Of a stretch of 64,000 nucleotides of DNA, positions 3,059 through 44,606 are shown one piece after another. Source of the stretch: Lacimicrobium sp. SS2-24 (GTDB taxonomy: Bacteria > Pseudomonadota > Gammaproteobacteria > Enterobacterales > Alteromonadaceae); assembly GCF_002201535.1 (NCBI RefSeq), contig NZ_NIWW01000003.1, forward strand, positions 186,001 through 250,000, read 5' to 3'. Each line of letters begins with the position of its first letter. Within the stretch, counting starts at the first letter, position 1. Both the position numbers and the translations under genes were made by a program. The notes under the pieces were generated by a model. The model did no database searches. It was not told where the DNA came from and saw nothing but the letters and a program-made list of their open reading frames with translations.

Positions 3059-4744
3059 TCAGTCACTGCCTTGTGTCTCCCGCTGTTTGGTTTGCCAGTC
3101 AGCAGCTGAAAAAGCCTCTACATCGGCCGGTGGTAAGCTACGCCCGAGAATATGGTCAGCACCCTTTTCACCAATCATAATGCTGGGCGCATTAATATTG
3201 CCATTGGTGACAAAGGGCATAATAGACGAGTCAATCACCCGCAGGTTTTCTACCCCATGCACACGGCACTCGGGATCCACCACCGCCATTTTATCCGTGC
3301 CCATCTTGCAGGAGCCACAAGGGTGATAGGCCGAAGCCGCGGTTTCTGCCACCCAGTCATCAATTTCATCATCGGTTTGCACATCATCACCCGGTGACAA
3401 CTCCCCCGCTCGATAAGGATCGAAAGCCCGCTGGTCGAAAATCTCCCGGGTCAGGCGCAGGGCATTGCGATAACATTGCCGGTCTTCCTCTTCGCTGAGG
3501 TAGTTGAAAAAAATCTTCGGCGCGGCCGCAGGGTCCTTACTGGCCAACTTCACCCACCCCCGACTCGCCGGCTTGTTGGCGCCCAGATGCACCTGATAGC
3601 CATGACCTTTGGCGGCACTGGAGCCATCATAGGCAATGGCACCGGGTAAAAAATGATACTGAATATCTGGATACTCCAGACCCGCGCGGCTGCGAATGTA
3701 GCCATTAGACTCGAAATGATTAGTAGCGCCGAGCCCCGATTTGAAGAAAAACCAACGCGCGCCAATAAGCAGCTGCCCAAACGGATTGAGCCAGCCATTG
3801 AGGGTAATCCGTTTCTTACAGTGATGTTGTACCCAGACTTCCAGATGGTCATGCAGATTCTGCCCCACCCCCGGCAGGTCGTGTACCACATCAATTCCTT
3901 GCTCTTTAAGGTGCTCGGCCGGACCAATACCGGATAGCATCAGTAATTTAGGCGAGTTAAAGGCACTGGCAGAGAGAATCACTTCCTTTTTCGCCTGCAC
4001 CTGCAATGTCTTGCCCTGATACTGATACTCGACTCCCACCGCCTTTTTGCCATACATCAGCACACGAGTTGTCAGCGCATGGGTCTGTACTTGCAAGTTA
4101 GGTCTGTTCATGGCCGGTTTTAAATACGCATTGGCAGTGGAGCAGCGCACCCCGTCACGCACGCTCATGTCCATGCGACTGAACCCTTCCTGTCGAAAGC
4201 CATTATAGTCCTGACTTTCGCCATAGCCCGCCTGCTTTCCGGCTTCAATAAAGGCCCGGTACAGTTCATTCTGCATGTTGTTGCCATTACACACACCCAC
4301 CGGCCCGCCGGTGGCCCGATACTCATCGGCCCCATAGAGACAGTCTTCGGCACGCCTGAAATAGGGCAGCACATCCTCATAATCCCAGCCATCAGCGCCC
4401 AGCTGCTGCCATTGACGATAATCCCCGGCACAGCCTCTGACATACGCCATACCATTGATGGAAGAGGAGCCGCCAATGACTTTACCTCGGGCCTGATGAA
4501 TCTTCCGACCTTTCAATCCGGGCTCAGGCTCGGTGTAATACTGCCAGTCGTACTTCGGCTTATTCATGGGAATTGAAAAGGCGGTCGGCATCTGAATAAA
4601 AATAGAATTATCTTTGCCGCCGAATTCCAGTACCAGCACCTGATTGGTTCCGTCCTCACTGAGTCGACTGGCCAGGACTGAGCCGGCCGAGCCGGCTCCC
4701 ACAATGATGTAATCAACACTCTGATCAAATTTAAATTCAGCCAT
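3059..4744 (-). CDS. betA: Choline dehydrogenase BetA (GMC flavoprotein)
   Basis: Membrane-associated FAD enzyme oxidising choline to betaine aldehyde (and often on to glycine betaine) for osmoprotection. The ADP-binding GxGxxG is GAGSAG at residues 16-21. The GMC signature ARGKVIGGSSSINGMAYVRG lies near residue 85, and the C-terminal catalytic region includes AYHPCGSCKMG and NINAPSIMIGEKGAD. The chosen start is the ATG of MAEFKFDQ (4744), giving 561 residues against about 556 in E. coli. This start overlaps the end of betT by 8 bases, so the pair is one operon. A start at 4771 would add nine residues that do not resemble the family. Confidence 0.93.
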   Translation of the reverse strand: MAEFKFDQSVDYIIVGAGSAGSVLASRLSEDGTNQVLVLEFGGKDNSIFIQMPTAFSIPMNKPKYDWQYYTEPEPGLKGRKIHQARGKVIGGSSSINGMAYVRGCAGDYRQWQQLGADGWDYEDVLPYFRRAEDCLYGADEYRATGGPVGVCNGNNMQNELYRAFIEAGKQAGYGESQDYNGFRQEGFSRMDMSVRDGVRCSTANAYLKPAMNRPNLQVQTHALTTRVLMYGKKAVGVEYQYQGKTLQVQAKKEVILSASAFNSPKLLMLSGIGPAEHLKEQGIDVVHDLPGVGQNLHDHLEVWVQHHCKKRITLNGWLNPFGQLLIGARWFFFKSGLGATNHFESNGYIRSRAGLEYPDIQYHFLPGAIAYDGSSAAKGHGYQVHLGANKPASRGWVKLASKDPAAAPKIFFNYLSEEEDRQCYRNALRLTREIFDQRAFDPYRAGELSPGDDVQTDDEIDDWVAETAASAYHPCGSCKMGTDKMAVVDPECRVHGVENLRVIDSSIMPFVTNGNINAPSIMIGEKGADHILGRSLPPADVEAFSAADWQTKQRETQGSD

Positions 4745-38484: not shown

Positions 38485-38836
38485 CAGGTTGGCGATGTGT
38501 GCTGCAAAGTTTCCCGGTCTCACTATGTCGGATAGGCCTCAATGCCCCCAATGTAACACTTCAGCGTACTGCTGGACCCAGCGCGGCAAAAACATGAATC
38601 GTATTGTGGCCTTTTGCCCCCCCAGTTTTTGCCTTTGTAATCATTTCGGTGAGTGAAATTTTCCACACCATTGCAGTCTTATTCAGGCCACCCGGCAGAT
38701 TCCGACAAATGCCACACCTGACACAGCAAGCACCAAATGCCTCGTCAGTAACGATACTAATCATGACTTTAGGCACATTATCTCAGCGGGTGATTGGCCT
38801 ACACTAGGCTTGCGATCACACCAACCCGAGAGAAGA
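38485..38836 (+). other. Intergenic region with a doubtful 43-codon Cys-rich ORF
   Basis: The 352 bp between rsmE and the CPBP gene contain an ATG ORF at 38525-38656 with six cysteines, including CPQC, suggestive of a tiny zinc-ribbon protein. It has no ribosome binding site, and a run of six C near 38620 invites frameshifts. No promoter, terminator or repeat was evident otherwise. Confidence 0.3.
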
Positions 38837-39520
38837 ATGAGCCACCCAGCCCCAAATTTAATCCTTTCACGGTCTGCCGGTATAACTCTGCTAGTGCTTT
38901 TCCTGCTATACGAAATACCGGTAAGAATGTTGCTGCAACCCGACCCCTGGTTACTGTCTGCAGAGCATTGGTATTTTTCACAACCTCTGCGGCTGGTCAC
39001 TGAGCTCGCATTGCTGGCTTCGTTATGCCTGATCACATTCAGGTTACTGCCGACGCTACTTAGCCTTCCCAGGCGATGCTATCCGCATCTGGTCGTTGGA
39101 GTGCTCGCCAGCGCCCTGTTGTTTGGCGTGATGGAGTGGCAACAGTTCAGCGCCAGCTTAGAAGCCCCTGTTACCCGATTTCTGATGTGGTTACTAAGCG
39201 GGTTTGCCATCGGTATGGGCCAGGAACTGCTTTACCGCGGCTGGTTATTTACCGCACTACGATCCCGCTTCTCATATGCTTACTCGGCAGGACTGACCAC
39301 CCTGGCTTTCGTGCTCGCACCTCTGCATTCTGTAAGACTGTGGGAATACCTGCAAAAAGGTGAGTTAACAGTGGTGATGATATTAGTCGCGATCTATATC
39401 GGTGCCAGCTTTGCCTTTCAATGGCTCAGAGATATCAGTCGCAGTGCCCTCTTGCCCGCCATAGTGCATGGCGTAGGGAACGCGATCACCTGGACCGCTG
39501 TCTTTACACTGGTGCGATAG
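38837..39520 (+). CDS. CPBP-family intramembrane metalloprotease
   Basis: Polytopic membrane protein of 227 residues. The start at 38837 (MSHPAPNLILSRSAG) has GAGAGAAGA upstream. Three CPBP motifs are visible: QELLYRGWLF (in place of the usual EExxxRG), FVLAPLHS supplying a histidine, and IVHGVGNAITW with the HxxxN motif. The glutamate-to-glutamine change at the first catalytic position may lower activity. Relatives include the CAAX protease-like and bacteriocin-processing or immunity proteins. It is upstream of a small secreted ORF and a two-component system, though nothing proves a link. Confidence 0.75.
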   Translation: MSHPAPNLILSRSAGITLLVLFLLYEIPVRMLLQPDPWLLSAEHWYFSQPLRLVTELALLASLCLITFRLLPTLLSLPRRCYPHLVVGVLASALLFGVMEWQQFSASLEAPVTRFLMWLLSGFAIGMGQELLYRGWLFTALRSRFSYAYSAGLTTLAFVLAPLHSVRLWEYLQKGELTVVMILVAIYIGASFAFQWLRDISRSALLPAIVHGVGNAITWTAVFTLVR

Positions 39521-39732
39521 ATGCTATCCAAACAAGACTGAGTCTTTCGTTTTATTCAGCCCTGCCTGGCGTTACAGCAGTGACTTATGCTGTTACCCGG
39601 CTGCCTGTACGATCCATGGATGAGTCACAAAACCCAGATTATGACGCCGGCACTGATCCGTCATAGTCTGTTTAACGGGCTTAGCATCATTGCTCTCACC
39701 ATTGCTGTATTCAGCGGATGAATCAATCACAA

Positions 39733-39748
39733 AGGTGACTTTTGGCAC
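39733..39748 (+). promoter_or_regulatory. 16-bp regulatory element, copy A
   Basis: AGGTGACTTTTGGCAC, identical to 42835-42850. A possible -10 (CACACT, 39772-39777) starts 39 bases after the element start, the same spacing as in copy B (TACACT, 42874-42879). That would centre the element near -43, a class II activator position. The element contains GTG-N8-CAC, an imperfect palindrome of the kind bound by NarL-type regulators. Confidence 0.55.
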
Positions 39749-39806
39749 ATGCCTGAGCTGCCAGTGGTGGGCACACTAACCTTCCGTTTTTAAGGAAGCT
39801 ATTACC

Positions 39807-39929
39807 ATGATCAGGTTTATACATAGTGCCACGCTTATTATCACGCTGGGTTTCGCTACCAGCGTGGCTGTTGCTCTTCCCAACAAAAACGCCGGGCTGG
39901 GCATTAACCTTACCGGCCTGTCCTACTGA
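39807..39929 (+). CDS. Small secreted ORF of 40 codons, possibly the 5' remnant of a larger gene
   Basis: ATG at 39807 with AAGGAAG about 10 bases upstream. It has a credible signal peptide (MIRFIHSATLIITLGF then ATSVAVA) followed by LPNKNAGLGINLTGLSY and TGA. Reading through the stop as tryptophan gives WSSQWTLLGM before the frame degenerates. A YWSxQW-like segment of this type seems familiar from larger secreted proteins, so a TGG-to-TGA nonsense mutation and decay is plausible. Against that, the promoter region carries the conserved 16-bp element, so it may be a regulated small peptide. No other feature was seen in 39521-40026. Confidence 0.45.
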   Translation: MIRFIHSATLIITLGFATSVAVALPNKNAGLGINLTGLSY

Positions 39930-40026
39930 TCCAGCCAATGGACCTTGCTGGGAATGTGTCTGAGTTATCAGCCTCTATTTCGGCCAACTAAGCTGTAGAT
40001 ACTAGCTCTGCTCCGAGAATCGATTG

Positions 40027-40932
40027 CTACTGTTTTAACGGTAGCAATCGTTCCTGCCAGTCCAGCCAGAACTGCTCCCGGGCATCTGACGGCTCAAACC
40101 ACTGCTTATTGATCGCCCTCAGCGGCCCCTGGCGCAGGTCTTCTATATTGGCATTAATATCGTTGATAAGCGGCGTGGTCACCGCGCTTTTGCTGCACAC
40201 TACCGCACCAAATCCGTATTCACGAACATGTTCCTGCAGGGGGATAAAGTGCATATTCAGTTGAGGATCGAGACTGTTGGCATAGCGCACCATAAAAGGG
40301 TAATCAATCGTGTAATCTGCCCTTCCCTGGGCCAGCATACGATAGAGGCTGAAGGTACTGTTGTAGCCCCCGCTGCGGCGCAAGACTTTGCCTTTTTCCT
40401 CAAAGGGTTTAATCAGTTCGTTTAACACCGGACCCAAATTGCGGCCGTCCTGAAGTAACAAGATTTGGTCGGAGGATTGAATGAAGCTGGCAAATGAAAG
40501 TGGCCGCGCAGCGGGAAACTGATTTAACTGCGACTGATGCACCACCATGCCATGCCATTCGAACATCAGCACCGGAGCCGACCAGACAATATCTTCCCTG
40601 GGCATACCGTTTTCATTTGGCCACCGATAGAACCCGGTTGAAGTGCAAGCATTGTCCTGCGTTGCCAGCCAATCAACCAGTCTTGAAAAGGTGGTGGTAA
40701 TGGGCTGATGGCGATACCCCGGTAGCGCGTCAAATAGCGCCGCTTCAATCTGGTCACCATAACCCTGACCTTGCATTGGTCCTTCCATGATCCATGAGGG
40801 CGCCCAATCCACCTGCATCCATAAAATCTTTGGCTTCACGTCTTCTGCGCTGGCTAACAGCGCAACCATGCAAAGCCATGACAACACAATGGATTTGGAT
40901 AAGATCGTATAAAACCCTGAATATGACATCAT
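40027..40932 (-). CDS. Periplasmic amino-acid-type solute-binding protein (SBP_bac_3-like)
   Basis: Secreted two-lobe binding protein of about 300 residues. The start at 40932 (MMSYSGFYTILS) gives a signal peptide ending near ALLASAE. The mature part has WMQVDWAPSWIMEGPMQGQGYGDQI and the later GRADYTIDYPFMVRY, features of the orphan family resembling TIGR02285. No ABC permease or ATPase genes are adjacent, as is usual for this orphan class in Alteromonadales, where such proteins may feed signalling rather than transport. It is convergent with the small ORF at 39807 and precedes the response regulator on the same strand only at a distance. Confidence 0.75.
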   Translation of the reverse strand: MMSYSGFYTILSKSIVLSWLCMVALLASAEDVKPKILWMQVDWAPSWIMEGPMQGQGYGDQIEAALFDALPGYRHQPITTTFSRLVDWLATQDNACTSTGFYRWPNENGMPREDIVWSAPVLMFEWHGMVVHQSQLNQFPAARPLSFASFIQSSDQILLLQDGRNLGPVLNELIKPFEEKGKVLRRSGGYNSTFSLYRMLAQGRADYTIDYPFMVRYANSLDPQLNMHFIPLQEHVREYGFGAVVCSKSAVTTPLINDINANIEDLRQGPLRAINKQWFEPSDAREQFWLDWQERLLPLKQ

Positions 40933-41004
40933 CGCACTTGGCCTTTGTGGACTGTATTTACCATAAATTAGCCAAACCGGAAATGCGAGCAATGGGTGCG
41001 AATT

Positions 41005-41655
41005 TCAGCTAATCAGCCCTAATTCTATGGCTCTTAGCACCGCTCTGGTGCGATCTCTGACGCCAAGTTTCGCCAGCAGATTGGAAACCTGATTCTTGAC
41101 GGTGCCCTCTGATTTAAACAATGACTGGGCAATTTCTTTATTACTGCATCCGGCGGCCATCAGGCGCAAAATCTCCCGCTCCTTATCGGACAAGGCCTCG
41201 GGTTGCTGATAGTGTTCGAAGTCAGATTTCAGTCCCTTAAGTGAATCCATCAGGGTAGAGGTGATGGCAGGCTGAATCAGGGTTTCGCCACGATGTACGG
41301 TTTCAATGCCGGCGATCAGATTTTCCAGGGAGACATCCTTGAGCAGATAACCTTTGGCTCCTGCCTTCAGGGCCTTGAGTAACAATTCATGATCATCAAA
41401 GGTGGTGAGAATGATGACTGGCGTAGAAATACCCTGCTCTGACATGGCATTAAGTGCCTGAATACCATCCATTCTGGGCATACGAATGTCCATCAGGATA
41501 ACATCAGCCTGATGAGGATGCTCCTGCAGCCAGCTCAGTGCCTGCTCTCCATCATTGGCCTGCGCCACCAACTTCACCTTATCTGACAAGCCCAGTAAAC
41601 TGGCGATACCCTGGCGTAAGAGCTGTTGGTCGTCCACCAGCAACAAATTTATCAC
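41005..41655 (-). CDS. NarL/LuxR-type response regulator
   Basis: Receiver domain (residues 1-120) with LLLVDDQQLLRQG, phosphoacceptor Asp56 in ILMDIRMPRMDG and lysine in AKGYLLKD. The LuxR-type helix-turn-helix follows (about 150-210) with LSDKEREILRLMAAGCSNKEIAQSLF and the recognition helix in GTVKNQVSNLLAKLGVRDR. The length is 216 residues. The start overlaps the upstream kinase stop by four bases (ATGA). The likely targets are the two identical 16-bp elements at 39733 and 42835 that flank this operon, though this is inferred. Confidence 0.93.
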   Translation of the reverse strand: MINLLLVDDQQLLRQGIASLLGLSDKVKLVAQANDGEQALSWLQEHPHQADVILMDIRMPRMDGIQALNAMSEQGISTPVIILTTFDDHELLLKALKAGAKGYLLKDVSLENLIAGIETVHRGETLIQPAITSTLMDSLKGLKSDFEHYQQPEALSDKEREILRLMAAGCSNKEIAQSLFKSEGTVKNQVSNLLAKLGVRDRTRAVLRAIELGLIS

Positions 41656-42776
41656 GGTTTTTCCTCCGGCCAGCTCAGCAGAGTCGAAAACCCCGCATCA
41701 GTGGCATCAAACTGCACCCTTCCCCCCAACGCTTCCACCCTCTCACGCAGACCATTAAGGCCATTCCCGGGTAAGAAGTCTCCCCCCTCGCCATTGTCTC
41801 TGATGCTAAGCGCAAGCCAGCCATCGGATTGATACAATCTTATCCACATTTTATCGGCATGACCGTGTTTTAAACTGTTGGTGAGACTTTCACGCACGCA
41901 CATCAACACCATATTGGCCTGCTCAATATCGGTCACCTGAGTCTCAAGTTCCACCTTCACCTCCAGCCTGGGGACATTATCTGTCAGTAACGCCAGTGCC
42001 TGCTGCAAATTGAGCGCCGAGCCTTTACGGATATCGGATACCGCCTCCCGGACATCGCTGAGTAGTAACGCAGCGATGCTGTGGCACTGCTCCATCAGCT
42101 GACGCACATCGCCATCGGTTTTACGCTGAGCCACCTGCAGGTTAATAGAAAGGGCCGTCAAATGATGCCCGAGCAGATCATGAATATTTCTGGCGATGCG
42201 GGTTCGCTCAGCTTGCTTACTGGCCTGGCTCAAGAGAGCCTGAGTCGCCATCAGCTCGCGATTGACCTCTTCAGCACGGGCTCGGGCGCGCTGCTCCTTC
42301 AGGGCTGTATTCATCATAATCAGGGCAAACAGGTTGAAGCTCCAGAACAATAAAGCGGTGATCCCCGCATACTCCTCCTGCCAGTAAAAGCGTAGCACCA
42401 GATACAAAGGTAATGACCATAACGGCGACAGCCACACCGCCTGCTTAAACGATAACAAGTGCGGCATCATGGCAGAGGCCAGCACCATCAGAATCGCCCC
42501 ATAACTATAGGGGACCAGCAGATACAGTCCTACGACCAGCACCATGACGCTGAGCAGCAAGGTCCAGCGTACACCTTTGTCATGCCGGTAAGGCTTGTCT
42601 CTGATCATCGCCAGAAACAGACCGATGAACAACAGGTACCCCGCCGACGCACTGACAACACGCCAGTGATCCCAGCTCAGCTGTTTTTGCAGAAAGTAGA
42701 CTGACGAACCGGCTACCAGGGCCCAGGTCAGCAATGCACTGAGGATCTCAGTATCAAGTTTTGGGAATGCTTTCAT
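41652..42776 (-). CDS. Sensor histidine kinase, HisKA_3/DesK-NarX type
   Basis: The start at 42776 (MKAFPKLDTEILS) gives 374 residues. About five hydrophobic segments occupy residues 10-165 with no large periplasmic loop, so it probably senses a membrane or intramembrane cue as DesK does. A coiled coil follows, then the HisKA_3 box RTRIARNIHDLLGHHLTAL with phosphoacceptor histidine near residue 199. The HATPase has SLTNSLKHGHADKMW and IRDNGEGGD. It is coupled to the response regulator. It diverges from the DUF2306-like gene, and the 16-bp element lies in the shared 130-bp gap. Confidence 0.92.
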   Translation of the reverse strand: MKAFPKLDTEILSALLTWALVAGSSVYFLQKQLSWDHWRVVSASAGYLLFIGLFLAMIRDKPYRHDKGVRWTLLLSVMVLVVGLYLLVPYSYGAILMVLASAMMPHLLSFKQAVWLSPLWSLPLYLVLRFYWQEEYAGITALLFWSFNLFALIMMNTALKEQRARARAEEVNRELMATQALLSQASKQAERTRIARNIHDLLGHHLTALSINLQVAQRKTDGDVRQLMEQCHSIAALLLSDVREAVSDIRKGSALNLQQALALLTDNVPRLEVKVELETQVTDIEQANMVLMCVRESLTNSLKHGHADKMWIRLYQSDGWLALSIRDNGEGGDFLPGNGLNGLRERVEALGGRVQFDATDAGFSTLLSWPEEKP

Positions 42777-42834
42777 GGTCTCAGCATAAGTGAGTTTAAT
42801 CAGCACTCCAATAGGCCAAAGGTCATTTAATACA

Positions 42835-42850
42835 AGGTGACTTTTGGCAC
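42835..42850 (+). promoter_or_regulatory. 16-bp regulatory element, copy B
   Basis: AGGTGACTTTTGGCAC, identical to copy A at 39733-39748. It ends 57 bases before the start of the membrane protein gene (copy A ends 59 before its ORF). TACACT at 42874-42879 would be the -10. It lies in the divergent gap between the histidine kinase and the membrane gene, so it could also serve autoregulation of the kinase operon. Confidence 0.6.
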
Positions 42851-42906
42851 TACGGCGTATGTTGCGTCGGATCTACACTGGCATCCTTCAACAAAGGAGA
42901 GTCCTG

Positions 42907-43647
42907 ATGTTAATGCTACATAATGTGCTACTGATGTTTCATATCGCTGTTGGCTCTGCCGCGCTGTTGCTGTTTTGGGTGCCGGCACTGACCAAAAAAG
43001 GCAGCATGGATCATAATAAATTCGGGCGCTACTACGCCAACGTCATGTACCTGGTGGCCGCCAGCGGATTTATCATGTCTGTTATTACCTTAATGGCACC
43101 TCTGGCGATACATGGTTCGGATGTTCGCCCTGAAGACGCACAATATGCCAGTGCCCGCATCCGTCAGTTCGCCTTCTTTTTACTTTATCTGAGCTGGCTG
43201 GTACTGACATCCATTCGACATGGTGTACTGGTGCTCAAATGCAAAAATGACAGAGGCCCCTTGCTTAAATTTTCGCACCTGAGCCTTCTACTGGTGCTTT
43301 TTGTAGGGGGCATCGGGCTCTTTATCCAGGGCGTTTATGGGAACAGAGTGCTGGATATGATCTTCGCAGCACTTGGGATGTTCATCGCCGCCGGAATGCT
43401 GCATTACGTGTTCCGCAATCAACTCAAGCCAAGGCAGTGGTGGGTCGAACACCTGGGCGCAATGATCGGGTCAGGCATTGGCGCTTATACCGCTTTTTTT
43501 GCCTTTGGCGCCAGAGCCGTTCTTGCCGACAGTGGATATATCCAGTTAATTGCCTGGGTCGCACCCGGGGTCATTGGCAGTATCGTTATTGCCATACAAA
43601 GCCGCAAATACACCATTAAGTTTACTCAATCTAAGGTCGCGAAATGA
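42907..43647 (+). CDS. DUF2306-like multi-pass membrane protein
   Basis: The start at 42907 (MLMLHNVLLMFHIAVG) has GGAGA about 7 bases upstream. About seven transmembrane helices span 246 residues. The N-terminal pattern HIAVGSAALLLFW, then KKGSMDHNKFGRYYANVMY, resembles DUF2306-type proteins (H-x3-G-x2-AL... H-x2-xGRxY), in which histidines may bind haem or a metal. Its ATGA overlap with the next gene makes a two-gene operon behind the 16-bp element, adjacent to the two-component system. The function is unknown. Confidence 0.7.
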   Translation: MLMLHNVLLMFHIAVGSAALLLFWVPALTKKGSMDHNKFGRYYANVMYLVAASGFIMSVITLMAPLAIHGSDVRPEDAQYASARIRQFAFFLLYLSWLVLTSIRHGVLVLKCKNDRGPLLKFSHLSLLLVLFVGGIGLFIQGVYGNRVLDMIFAALGMFIAAGMLHYVFRNQLKPRQWWVEHLGAMIGSGIGAYTAFFAFGARAVLADSGYIQLIAWVAPGVIGSIVIAIQSRKYTIKFTQSKVAK

Positions 43648-44606
43648 AAAAGATCATTCTGTTACTCACGCTCATCAGCACCAATATTTATGCAGACTTA
43701 CAAGCGGCCATCACCGCCTATCAACAAGGTCACAATGACACGGCCAAAGTGCTATTCAGTGAGGCACTGGAGCAGGTTGAGGCTAAGATCTACCTGGCCA
43801 GAATCTGGCAGAATCAGGACCTGGACGCTGCAGAACAATGGATAGAACAAGCCCTTGAACAAGATCCTGACAACCCCCTCGCCCATTTCGTGAAGGGATC
43901 GGTCATGGCGAATCAGGCCTCCGACAGCAGCATCTTTTCTGCTTACGGCTACGCCAAAGCGTCCCTCGCGGGGTTTAAAAAGGCGGTAGCCCTGGCACCT
44001 GAACAGGTCAGGTTCCGACAAGGGCTAATGCAGTTTTATCTTCAGGCTCCCGGTATTGCTGGAGGTAGTGAAGAGCAAGCATGGCAACAAGTGGAAGAGA
44101 TTGAACGCCTGAGCCCGCTTGATGGCATTAAAGCCAGACTGGCCTTCTACAAAGAAACAAAAAACAGTGAAGAGTATGAGTTGTTGTTATTTAAAGCCAG
44201 GCAAACATATCGCGACAAAGCCGACTTCCATTACCTCGCGGCATTAGATCTTCAGAGCAAAAAACGCTATTCAGAGGCCCTGGAATTGTTTGAAAGAGCA
44301 TCGCTTCTGCCCGGTGAAGATACCGGCGCCGAACTCGACAATTACCAGTCCCTTTATCAGGTTGGGCGCACTGCAGTGTTGGCTCAAGATTTTATCGAGA
44401 AGGGAATTCAGGCGCTTGAGCGGTATCTGCAACAAGCACCGGATAGCCGTCAATTGCCACAGAAGTACTGGGCCCGCTTCAGGCTGGCCAACTTACTCGA
44501 GCTCAAGGGAGAAAATAATGAAGCACAGCAAATCTATCAGAACTTGCTGGCTATCGACGATAAGCTGTTGCATGAGCGGGTTAAAAAAGCCCTGCAACAG
44601 AGTTGA
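43644..44606 (+). CDS. Periplasmic tetratricopeptide-repeat protein
   Basis: Signal peptide MKKIILLLTLISTNIYA, then a helical-repeat chain of about 300 residues. TPR-like units are recognisable at LQAAITAYQQGHNDTAKVLFSEAL, WIEQALEQDPDNPLAHFVKG, YLAALDLQSKKRYSEALELF and RLANLLELKGENNEAQQIYQ. It overlaps the membrane protein gene by four bases, so the two are translated together. TPR proteins of this kind scaffold envelope complexes, and a partnership with the membrane protein is the simplest reading. No enzymatic motif is present. Confidence 0.75.
   Translation: MKKIILLLTLISTNIYADLQAAITAYQQGHNDTAKVLFSEALEQVEAKIYLARIWQNQDLDAAEQWIEQALEQDPDNPLAHFVKGSVMANQASDSSIFSAYGYAKASLAGFKKAVALAPEQVRFRQGLMQFYLQAPGIAGGSEEQAWQQVEEIERLSPLDGIKARLAFYKETKNSEEYELLLFKARQTYRDKADFHYLAALDLQSKKRYSEALELFERASLLPGEDTGAELDNYQSLYQVGRTAVLAQDFIEKGIQALERYLQQAPDSRQLPQKYWARFRLANLLELKGENNEAQQIYQNLLAIDDKLLHERVKKALQQS

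Follow-up and report, generated by a model that had tools for sequence, protein, structure and literature searches.

LiaR, CesR and VraR, which act in the envelope stress response of Firmicutes, belong to the same regulator class as the NarL-type response regulator considered here. LiaR of Streptococcus mutans and CesR bind inverted repeats located before a small set of promoters, according to PMC4447274. Here we analyse a locus in a window of 64,000 nucleotides from Lacimicrobium sp. SS2-24 (contig NZ_NIWW01000003.1, positions 186,001 to 250,000, forward strand), where a 16-base-pair element, AGGTGACTTTTGGCAC, occurs twice near the genes of a NarL-type regulator and a histidine kinase. We consider it highly likely, judging from conservation and promoter layout, that this 16-mer is the operator of the adjacent NarL/LuxR-type regulator and that the regulator activates both its own operon and the operon of a membrane protein and a TPR protein. 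The element very probably serves as the binding site of this response regulator, retains its position before equivalent genes in many marine bacteria, and marks a small membrane-related circuit that appears to be unstudied.

One copy of the repeated 16-mer is half of a probable back-to-back operator

The exact copies of AGGTGACTTTTGGCAC lie at 39733-39748 and 42835-42850, where an earlier note on this DNA had placed them, and no other exact copy exists in the 3,708,726-base genome. For one given 16-mer about 0.0017 copies would be expected under uniform composition. Scanning the genome with up to two mismatches returned, besides the two exact copies, two places with one mismatch, both within open frames, and three with two mismatches; the many copies in unrelated places that the earlier note named as a reason to doubt the element did not appear as exact matches. 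The copies are identical over 17 base pairs, one base beyond the 16-mer, and their flanks diverge past that point. The core of the element is GTGACTTTTGGCAC, an imperfect 14-base dyad. Comparison of loci revealed that a larger operator, AGGCCAAAAGTCAY-N10/11-RTGACTTTTGGCAC, includes the copy at 42835 as one of its halves; the other half, on the left, repeats the word in the orientation of the kinase. The features of this region are as follows.

41005-41655, minus strand: NarL-type response regulator (Response_reg, GerE), from Pfam and the closest solved sequences
41652-42776, minus strand: histidine kinase (HisKA_3, HATPase_c; four hydrophobic segments), from Pfam and a simple hydrophobicity scan
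42783-42788, minus strand: predicted -10 TATGCT of the kinase-regulator operon; the predicted +1, 42776, is the A of the kinase ATG
42813-42850, no strand: back-to-back operator, arm A, 10-base spacer and arm B
42813-42826, minus strand: arm A ATGACCTTTGGCCT, toward the kinase, from comparison of loci; one mismatch to ATGACTTTTGGCCTAT, of which it is the closest match in the genome
42837-42850, plus strand: arm B GTGACTTTTGGCAC, toward the membrane-protein gene; core of the 16-mer
42874-42879, plus strand: TACACT, predicted as the -10 of the operon for the membrane and TPR proteins, with the +1 predicted at 42886
42907-43647, plus strand: membrane protein of a family without assignment, predicted target of arm B, from Pfam and NCBIfam scans, a structural model and an alignment
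43644-44606, plus strand: TPR protein, second gene of the operon, with a signal-peptide-like start judged by eye

The inverted arm at 42813-42826 and the kinase promoter, as well as a third site at 38763 before a CPBP gene (see below), are additions to what had been noticed earlier. The genes said to lie between the two 16-mers, a NarL-type regulator and its kinase, are indeed there, and so is a further gene (40027-40950, minus strand) that had been missed.

Conservation and co-occurrence with the regulator

Homologues of the kinase were found in 45 of 59 genomes, and 20 loci were taken for upstream comparison (L and G numbers denote loci and genomes, respectively). In this first set, the arm on the side of the divergent gene differs from GTGACTTTTGGCAC by at most two mismatches in 13 loci, by three in L052 and L055 and by four in L053. 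For a larger set, the membrane proteins encoded divergently from the kinase were aligned, named genomes were scanned with the alignment and the best 80 of 418 loci (L126-L205) were retained, in 63 of which a kinase homologue is divergent to the membrane-protein gene. The paired operator, with no more than 6 mismatches of 28, is present in 64 of the 80 loci, with a spacer of 10 bases in 53 and of 11 bases in 11. By comparison, the best match in 1041 random 300-base stretches from the same loci has 9 mismatches. The copy at 42835 is thus conserved at the same place in many genera, which contradicts, for this copy, the view that the two 16-mers are functionless and arose by chance or as a dispersed repeat. 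The two one-mismatch places within open frames could speak for that view, but the flanks differ beyond 17 base pairs, and as an account of the pair we find it hardly credible. The copy at 39733, taken alone, may be an orphaned promoter before a relic.

The paired operator accompanies the regulator: it is found in 62 of the 70 loci with an adjacent regulator gene versus two of the 10 without (Fisher p 1.6e-5, a value that serves as a guide only since the genomes are related and not independent). The two loci with an operator and no adjacent regulator, L144 and L176, could indicate that a different transcription factor occupies the sites. However, both genomes hold a homologue of the regulator elsewhere (63% and 58% identity, respectively), and the co-occurrence of operator and regulator, as well as the presence of the operator at relocated kinases, further speak against this possibility, which we regard as very unlikely. 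In the operator-less genomes of L192, L179 and L197 the best regulator match reaches 29%, 38% and 37% identity. Kinases relocated away from the membrane-protein gene have an arm-A-type site upstream, with two mismatches in L230 and one in L231. In L231, from Arsukibacterium, both arms are present before the relocated kinase with an 11-base spacer (3313-3351). A variant operator built of CTTAAGTAAC / GCTTAAGTCAC words is found upstream of the membrane-protein gene in Pseudohongiella and relatives (L160, L164, L168, L189), together with a lone regulator gene and no recognised kinase.

Promoter layout and proposed mechanism

Both copies of the 16-mer are followed, 39 bases from its start (37 from the core start), by the YACACT hexamer noticed earlier, CACACT at 39772-39777 and TACACT at 42874-42879. 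Because both hexamers begin at this distance, the core is centred at about -42.5 from the predicted +1 (39784 and 42886), in agreement with the proposed class II activator position near -43. The distance from the end of the element to the ATG, previously given as 57-59 bases, is 58 bases for the ATG at 39807, within that range, and 56 for the ATG at 42907, just outside it. To describe the layout, 66 loci (64 non-identical) were aligned, 14 of the 80 being left out by hand. Conservation of the arms in this alignment is partly selected, since loci were chosen by their match to the arms, whereas the -10 spacing is not. Information is concentrated in the two arms and the -10, and the interval from arm B to the -10 keeps no more than one T well. 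Counted from the start of the core, 58 of 66 loci have TAnnnT at offset 37, whereas no other offset between 15 and 59 has it in more than two. No conserved -35 hexamer was found in the 66 aligned promoters. A centre at about -42.5, absence of a -35 and rigid -10 spacing form the usual layout of activator-dependent promoters. In class II activator-dependent promoters the activator site is centred near -41.5/-42.5 at a fixed distance from the -10, and the sites described here, measured from the predicted +1, conform to this.

The sequences themselves show that the sites exist and are conserved, that their spacing is fixed and that they occur together with the regulator; conservation, co-occurrence and -10 spacing together support assigning the site to the neighbouring NarL-type system, as the earlier note had done. 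From these we infer binding, phosphorylation and activation rather than repression. Each imperfect dyad of 14 bases, RTGACTTTTGGCAC, would be occupied by a dimer of the phosphorylated regulator, covering about -49 to -36, from where it would stimulate RNA polymerase in the class II manner. The paired sites would turn on the kinase-regulator operon itself, a positive autoregulation, together with the membrane-protein/TPR operon, and the single sites in this genome would add two more promoters, that of the CPBP gene (38763) and that of a gene now decayed (39733). The signal might be the state of the membrane or envelope, as we guess from what type of kinase this is and from the nature of the targets. 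The regulator could also bind the same sites and mainly repress, with induction by release. Repression can occur in autoregulated systems, and the direction of control is not certain from sequence. However, the centre at about -42.5, the lack of a conserved -35 hexamer and the rigid 37-base spacing point to an activator-dependent layout, and we consider repression improbable.

Promoter model and observations that weigh against activation through this operator

A promoter model was built from the 66 aligned promoters, none of them known to come from the genome of the window. In the window its three highest scores all fall in this cluster (42837, 32.6; 39735, 22.0; 38763, 20.5) and the next is 14.6. 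Among 952,218 bases of the 80 loci, with C required at core positions 5 and 12, scores of 19 or more were confined to the 300 bases that precede the gene of the membrane protein.

Several observations weigh against the proposed operator and its activating role. Four of the first 20 loci (L041, L044, L056, L057) lack the arm facing the membrane protein at up to four mismatches; L041 and L044 retain the other arm, and L057 has a kinase-facing copy, read by eye. Eight of the 70 loci with a regulator fail the paired-operator test: the arms are more widely spaced in L128, L129 and L150, L193 has a perfect arm B without arm A, and L160, L164, L168 and L189 carry the variant. On the kinase side, strict TAnnnT occurs at offsets 36-39 in 12 of 66 loci (controls: mean 4.25, maximum 7). 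With a looser -10 (A2, T6 and at least four of six to TATAAT), a definition fixed after the profile was seen, the kinase side does favour the proposal: 57 of 66 loci have such a hexamer at offsets 37-39, mostly CATACT or CATAAT, compared with a mean of 4.2 and a maximum of 9 in the controls. Ten shuffled windows gave two scores of at least 19 (19.2 and 20.0), and two other places in the sister genome G001, L109 and L123, reach 22.7. Finally, near-matches with up to two mismatches are not in excess genome-wide, with 30 in the genome itself versus 74 for the reversed control pattern, 38 versus 58 in G001 and 36 versus 60 in G002; the arm-A pattern gives 24 versus 38.

Near-matches being rarer than the reversed control, a large regulon is unsupported. 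The loose palindrome GTGNCNNNNGNCAC alone, with two occurrences in the window versus 1.17 expected, is not significant and is uninformative. Sixty near-match loci from G000-G002 were scored with the model (30 for G000, and 30 of 74 for G001 and G002). L109 and L123 were set aside as chance-like; the former lies within an open frame of the other strand, and in the latter the following gene has its start codon within reach of the would-be -10, so that the two overlap.

A predicted leaderless kinase mRNA

With the -10 placed at 37-39 from arm A, 30 of 62 loci have a start codon in frame with the kinase at the predicted +1 or within one base of it. Judged by the nearest ATG, the kinase start coincides exactly with the predicted +1 in 24 of the 62 and lies one base later in four; in the window, the predicted +1 is the ATG at 42776. 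The divergent membrane-protein gene, used as a control, starts at its +1 in none of 65 loci, has a median leader of 28 bases and is preceded by a Shine-Dalgarno-like 4-mer in 61 of 65. A leaderless kinase mRNA is predicted because the +1 meets the start codon in 30 of 62 kinase loci versus 0 of 65 divergent ones. It remains a prediction, since the coincidence is missing from the remaining 32 loci, the genomes compared share ancestry and the position of the +1 is itself inferred. The kinase-regulator mRNA is thus predicted to be both leaderless and autoregulated. Among the literature matches listed, no title describes a leaderless mRNA with kinases. One operator serving a leaderless kinase mRNA on one side and a gene with a normal leader on the other would be an unusual arrangement, and an easily tested one.

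Single sites before the CPBP gene and a gene relic

The two further high-scoring sites of the window are single, with the following features.

38763-38776, plus strand: third site ATGACTTTAGGCAC, before the CPBP gene; model score 20.5
38800-38805, plus strand: predicted -10 TACACT (offset 37); predicted +1 at 38812
38837-39520, plus strand: gene of a CPBP (Rce1-like) intramembrane protease; PF02517 42.7 bits versus cut-off 22.4
39733-39748, plus strand: second exact 16-mer, core 39735-39748, single and without arm A; model score 22.0
39772-39777, plus strand: predicted -10 CACACT, offset 37 as at 42837; predicted +1 at 39784
39807-39929, plus strand: 40-codon open reading frame, apparent N-terminal relic of a large protein that looks secreted; stop-interrupted, from the alignment with G031

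ATGACTTTAGGCAC lies 60 bases before the ATG of the CPBP gene, which is assigned by its PF02517 score. The gene is rare: counting the genome of the window itself, three of 59 have a match at E <= 0.001, and a wider search at E <= 1e-20 returned two of 295 genomes, its own and G047, adding none. In G021 and G047, the two close homologues each follow a TPR gene with the same type of promoter: GTGACTTTTGGCAC or GTGACTTATGGCAC stands before the TPR gene, and the hexamer at offset 37 is TATCTT or TAAGCT (offsets by eye). A weak second CPBP match in G047 (L219, E 9.6e-4) has no copy of the site with up to two mismatches in its locus.

The open reading frame at 39807 had been proposed as a small secreted product of the regulon. 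Instead of a working target, we find a relic interrupted by a TGA after ...GLGINLTGLSY, beyond which the frame goes on as SSQW. It aligns with the start of an 812-residue open frame in G031 (AIGINLTGINYWSTQW) with 41% identity (E 3.7e-5), its sole non-self match below 0.01 among the 59 genomes. The G031 frame is without such a site, the best match in its locus having four mismatches. A functional secreted peptide is therefore disfavoured. The whole stretch 39520-40020 looks like gene relics, comprising an ATPase-like fragment (39590-39721) and the interrupted frame, and for this reason the copy at 39733 may be an orphaned promoter. The fragment was also considered as a CPBP remnant and rejected, its sole Pfam match being PF00689, the C-terminus of P-type ATPases (16.1 versus 27.3 bits, E 0.01). 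The neighbouring gene at 40027-40950 is periplasmic-binding-protein-like and related to TIGR02285 (98.2 bits versus cut-off 143.3); tblastn found no homologue of it in the 20 wide loci or in the 80 loci.

Proteins of the system

The kinase has HisKA_3 (PF07730, 52.5 bits) followed by HATPase_c (PF02518, 30.6 bits), and Pfam lists no sensor domain. It stays below the NCBIfam cut-offs for LiaS (45.9/450), NarX (43.3/578), NarQ (55/553) and UhpB (66.1/408). The regulator combines a receiver (PF00072, 101.2 bits) with a GerE-type helix-turn-helix (PF00196, 63.7 bits), both over the cut-off, and is below the cut-offs of the 25 best of 127 NCBIfam families. In its segment KSEGTVKNQVS, the residues S, G, T, K, N, V and S are each at least 98% conserved over 71 aligned sequences.

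The membrane protein matches no Pfam or NCBIfam family above cut-off. Its former label, DUF2306-like, is not supported: PF10067 is not listed for it at E <= 10 and scores 17.8 bits (cut-off 31.6) in one of three homologues. The structural model is helical and confident (pLDDT, the model's confidence score, 92.8). Foldseek returned no match at E <= 0.001, VIA-align gave matches of no more than middling quality, all to helical proteins without relation to it (best Z 8.8, root-mean-square deviation 3.1 over 117 residues), and thus no function was read from the fold. When PDB sequences were searched with a profile, nothing came up at E <= 1. H12, H36 and H182 are invariant in 50 sequences, and the family has a YTAF motif; binding of metal or haem is conceivable.

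Comparison with known systems

No description of this two-component system was found in the open-licence literature, mostly judged from listings, and among the literature matches listed no title on a bacterial regulator came up for the core word TGACTTTTGGC. The locus offers a testable operator and a minimal target set for an apparently unstudied system, as well as a handle on a conserved membrane-protein family without assigned function. Tentatively, and short of calling it probable, we picture a membrane- or envelope-sensing system of marine Gammaproteobacteria with a leaderless, self-driven kinase, controlling a membrane protein, a secreted TPR protein and, in few species, a CPBP protease.

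Of the NCBIfam models listed for the regulator, that of NarL (NF007935) scores highest, with 158.5 bits, under its cut-off of 250 bits. The NarL heptamer site differs in sequence from the element described here, and unlike in the NarX/NarQ-NarL system no nitrate gene is among the targets described. The closest solved sequences of the regulator are VraR (5hev, E 1.1e-39, the best), NarL and DesR (4ldz, E 5.5e-33). Likeness to the Firmicutes envelope-stress systems lies in the regulator class, whereas the kinase does not reach the LiaS cut-off. The inverted repeats bound by LiaR and CesR differ in sequence from the present element; the CesR motif given in PMC4447274, TCAGHCTnnAGDCTGA, is different from GTGACTTTTGGCAC. 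According to the same paper, S. mutans LiaR does not bind its own liaFSR promoter, whereas here the regulator's own promoter has the most conserved site. As in DesK-DesR of Bacillus subtilis, the kinase combines hydrophobic N-terminal segments with HisKA_3, but the candidate targets are membrane-protein, TPR and CPBP genes instead of a desaturase, and the likeness described is one between the proteins. By analogy, LiaSR/CesSR/VraSR and DesKR appear to be the nearest working counterparts of this system.

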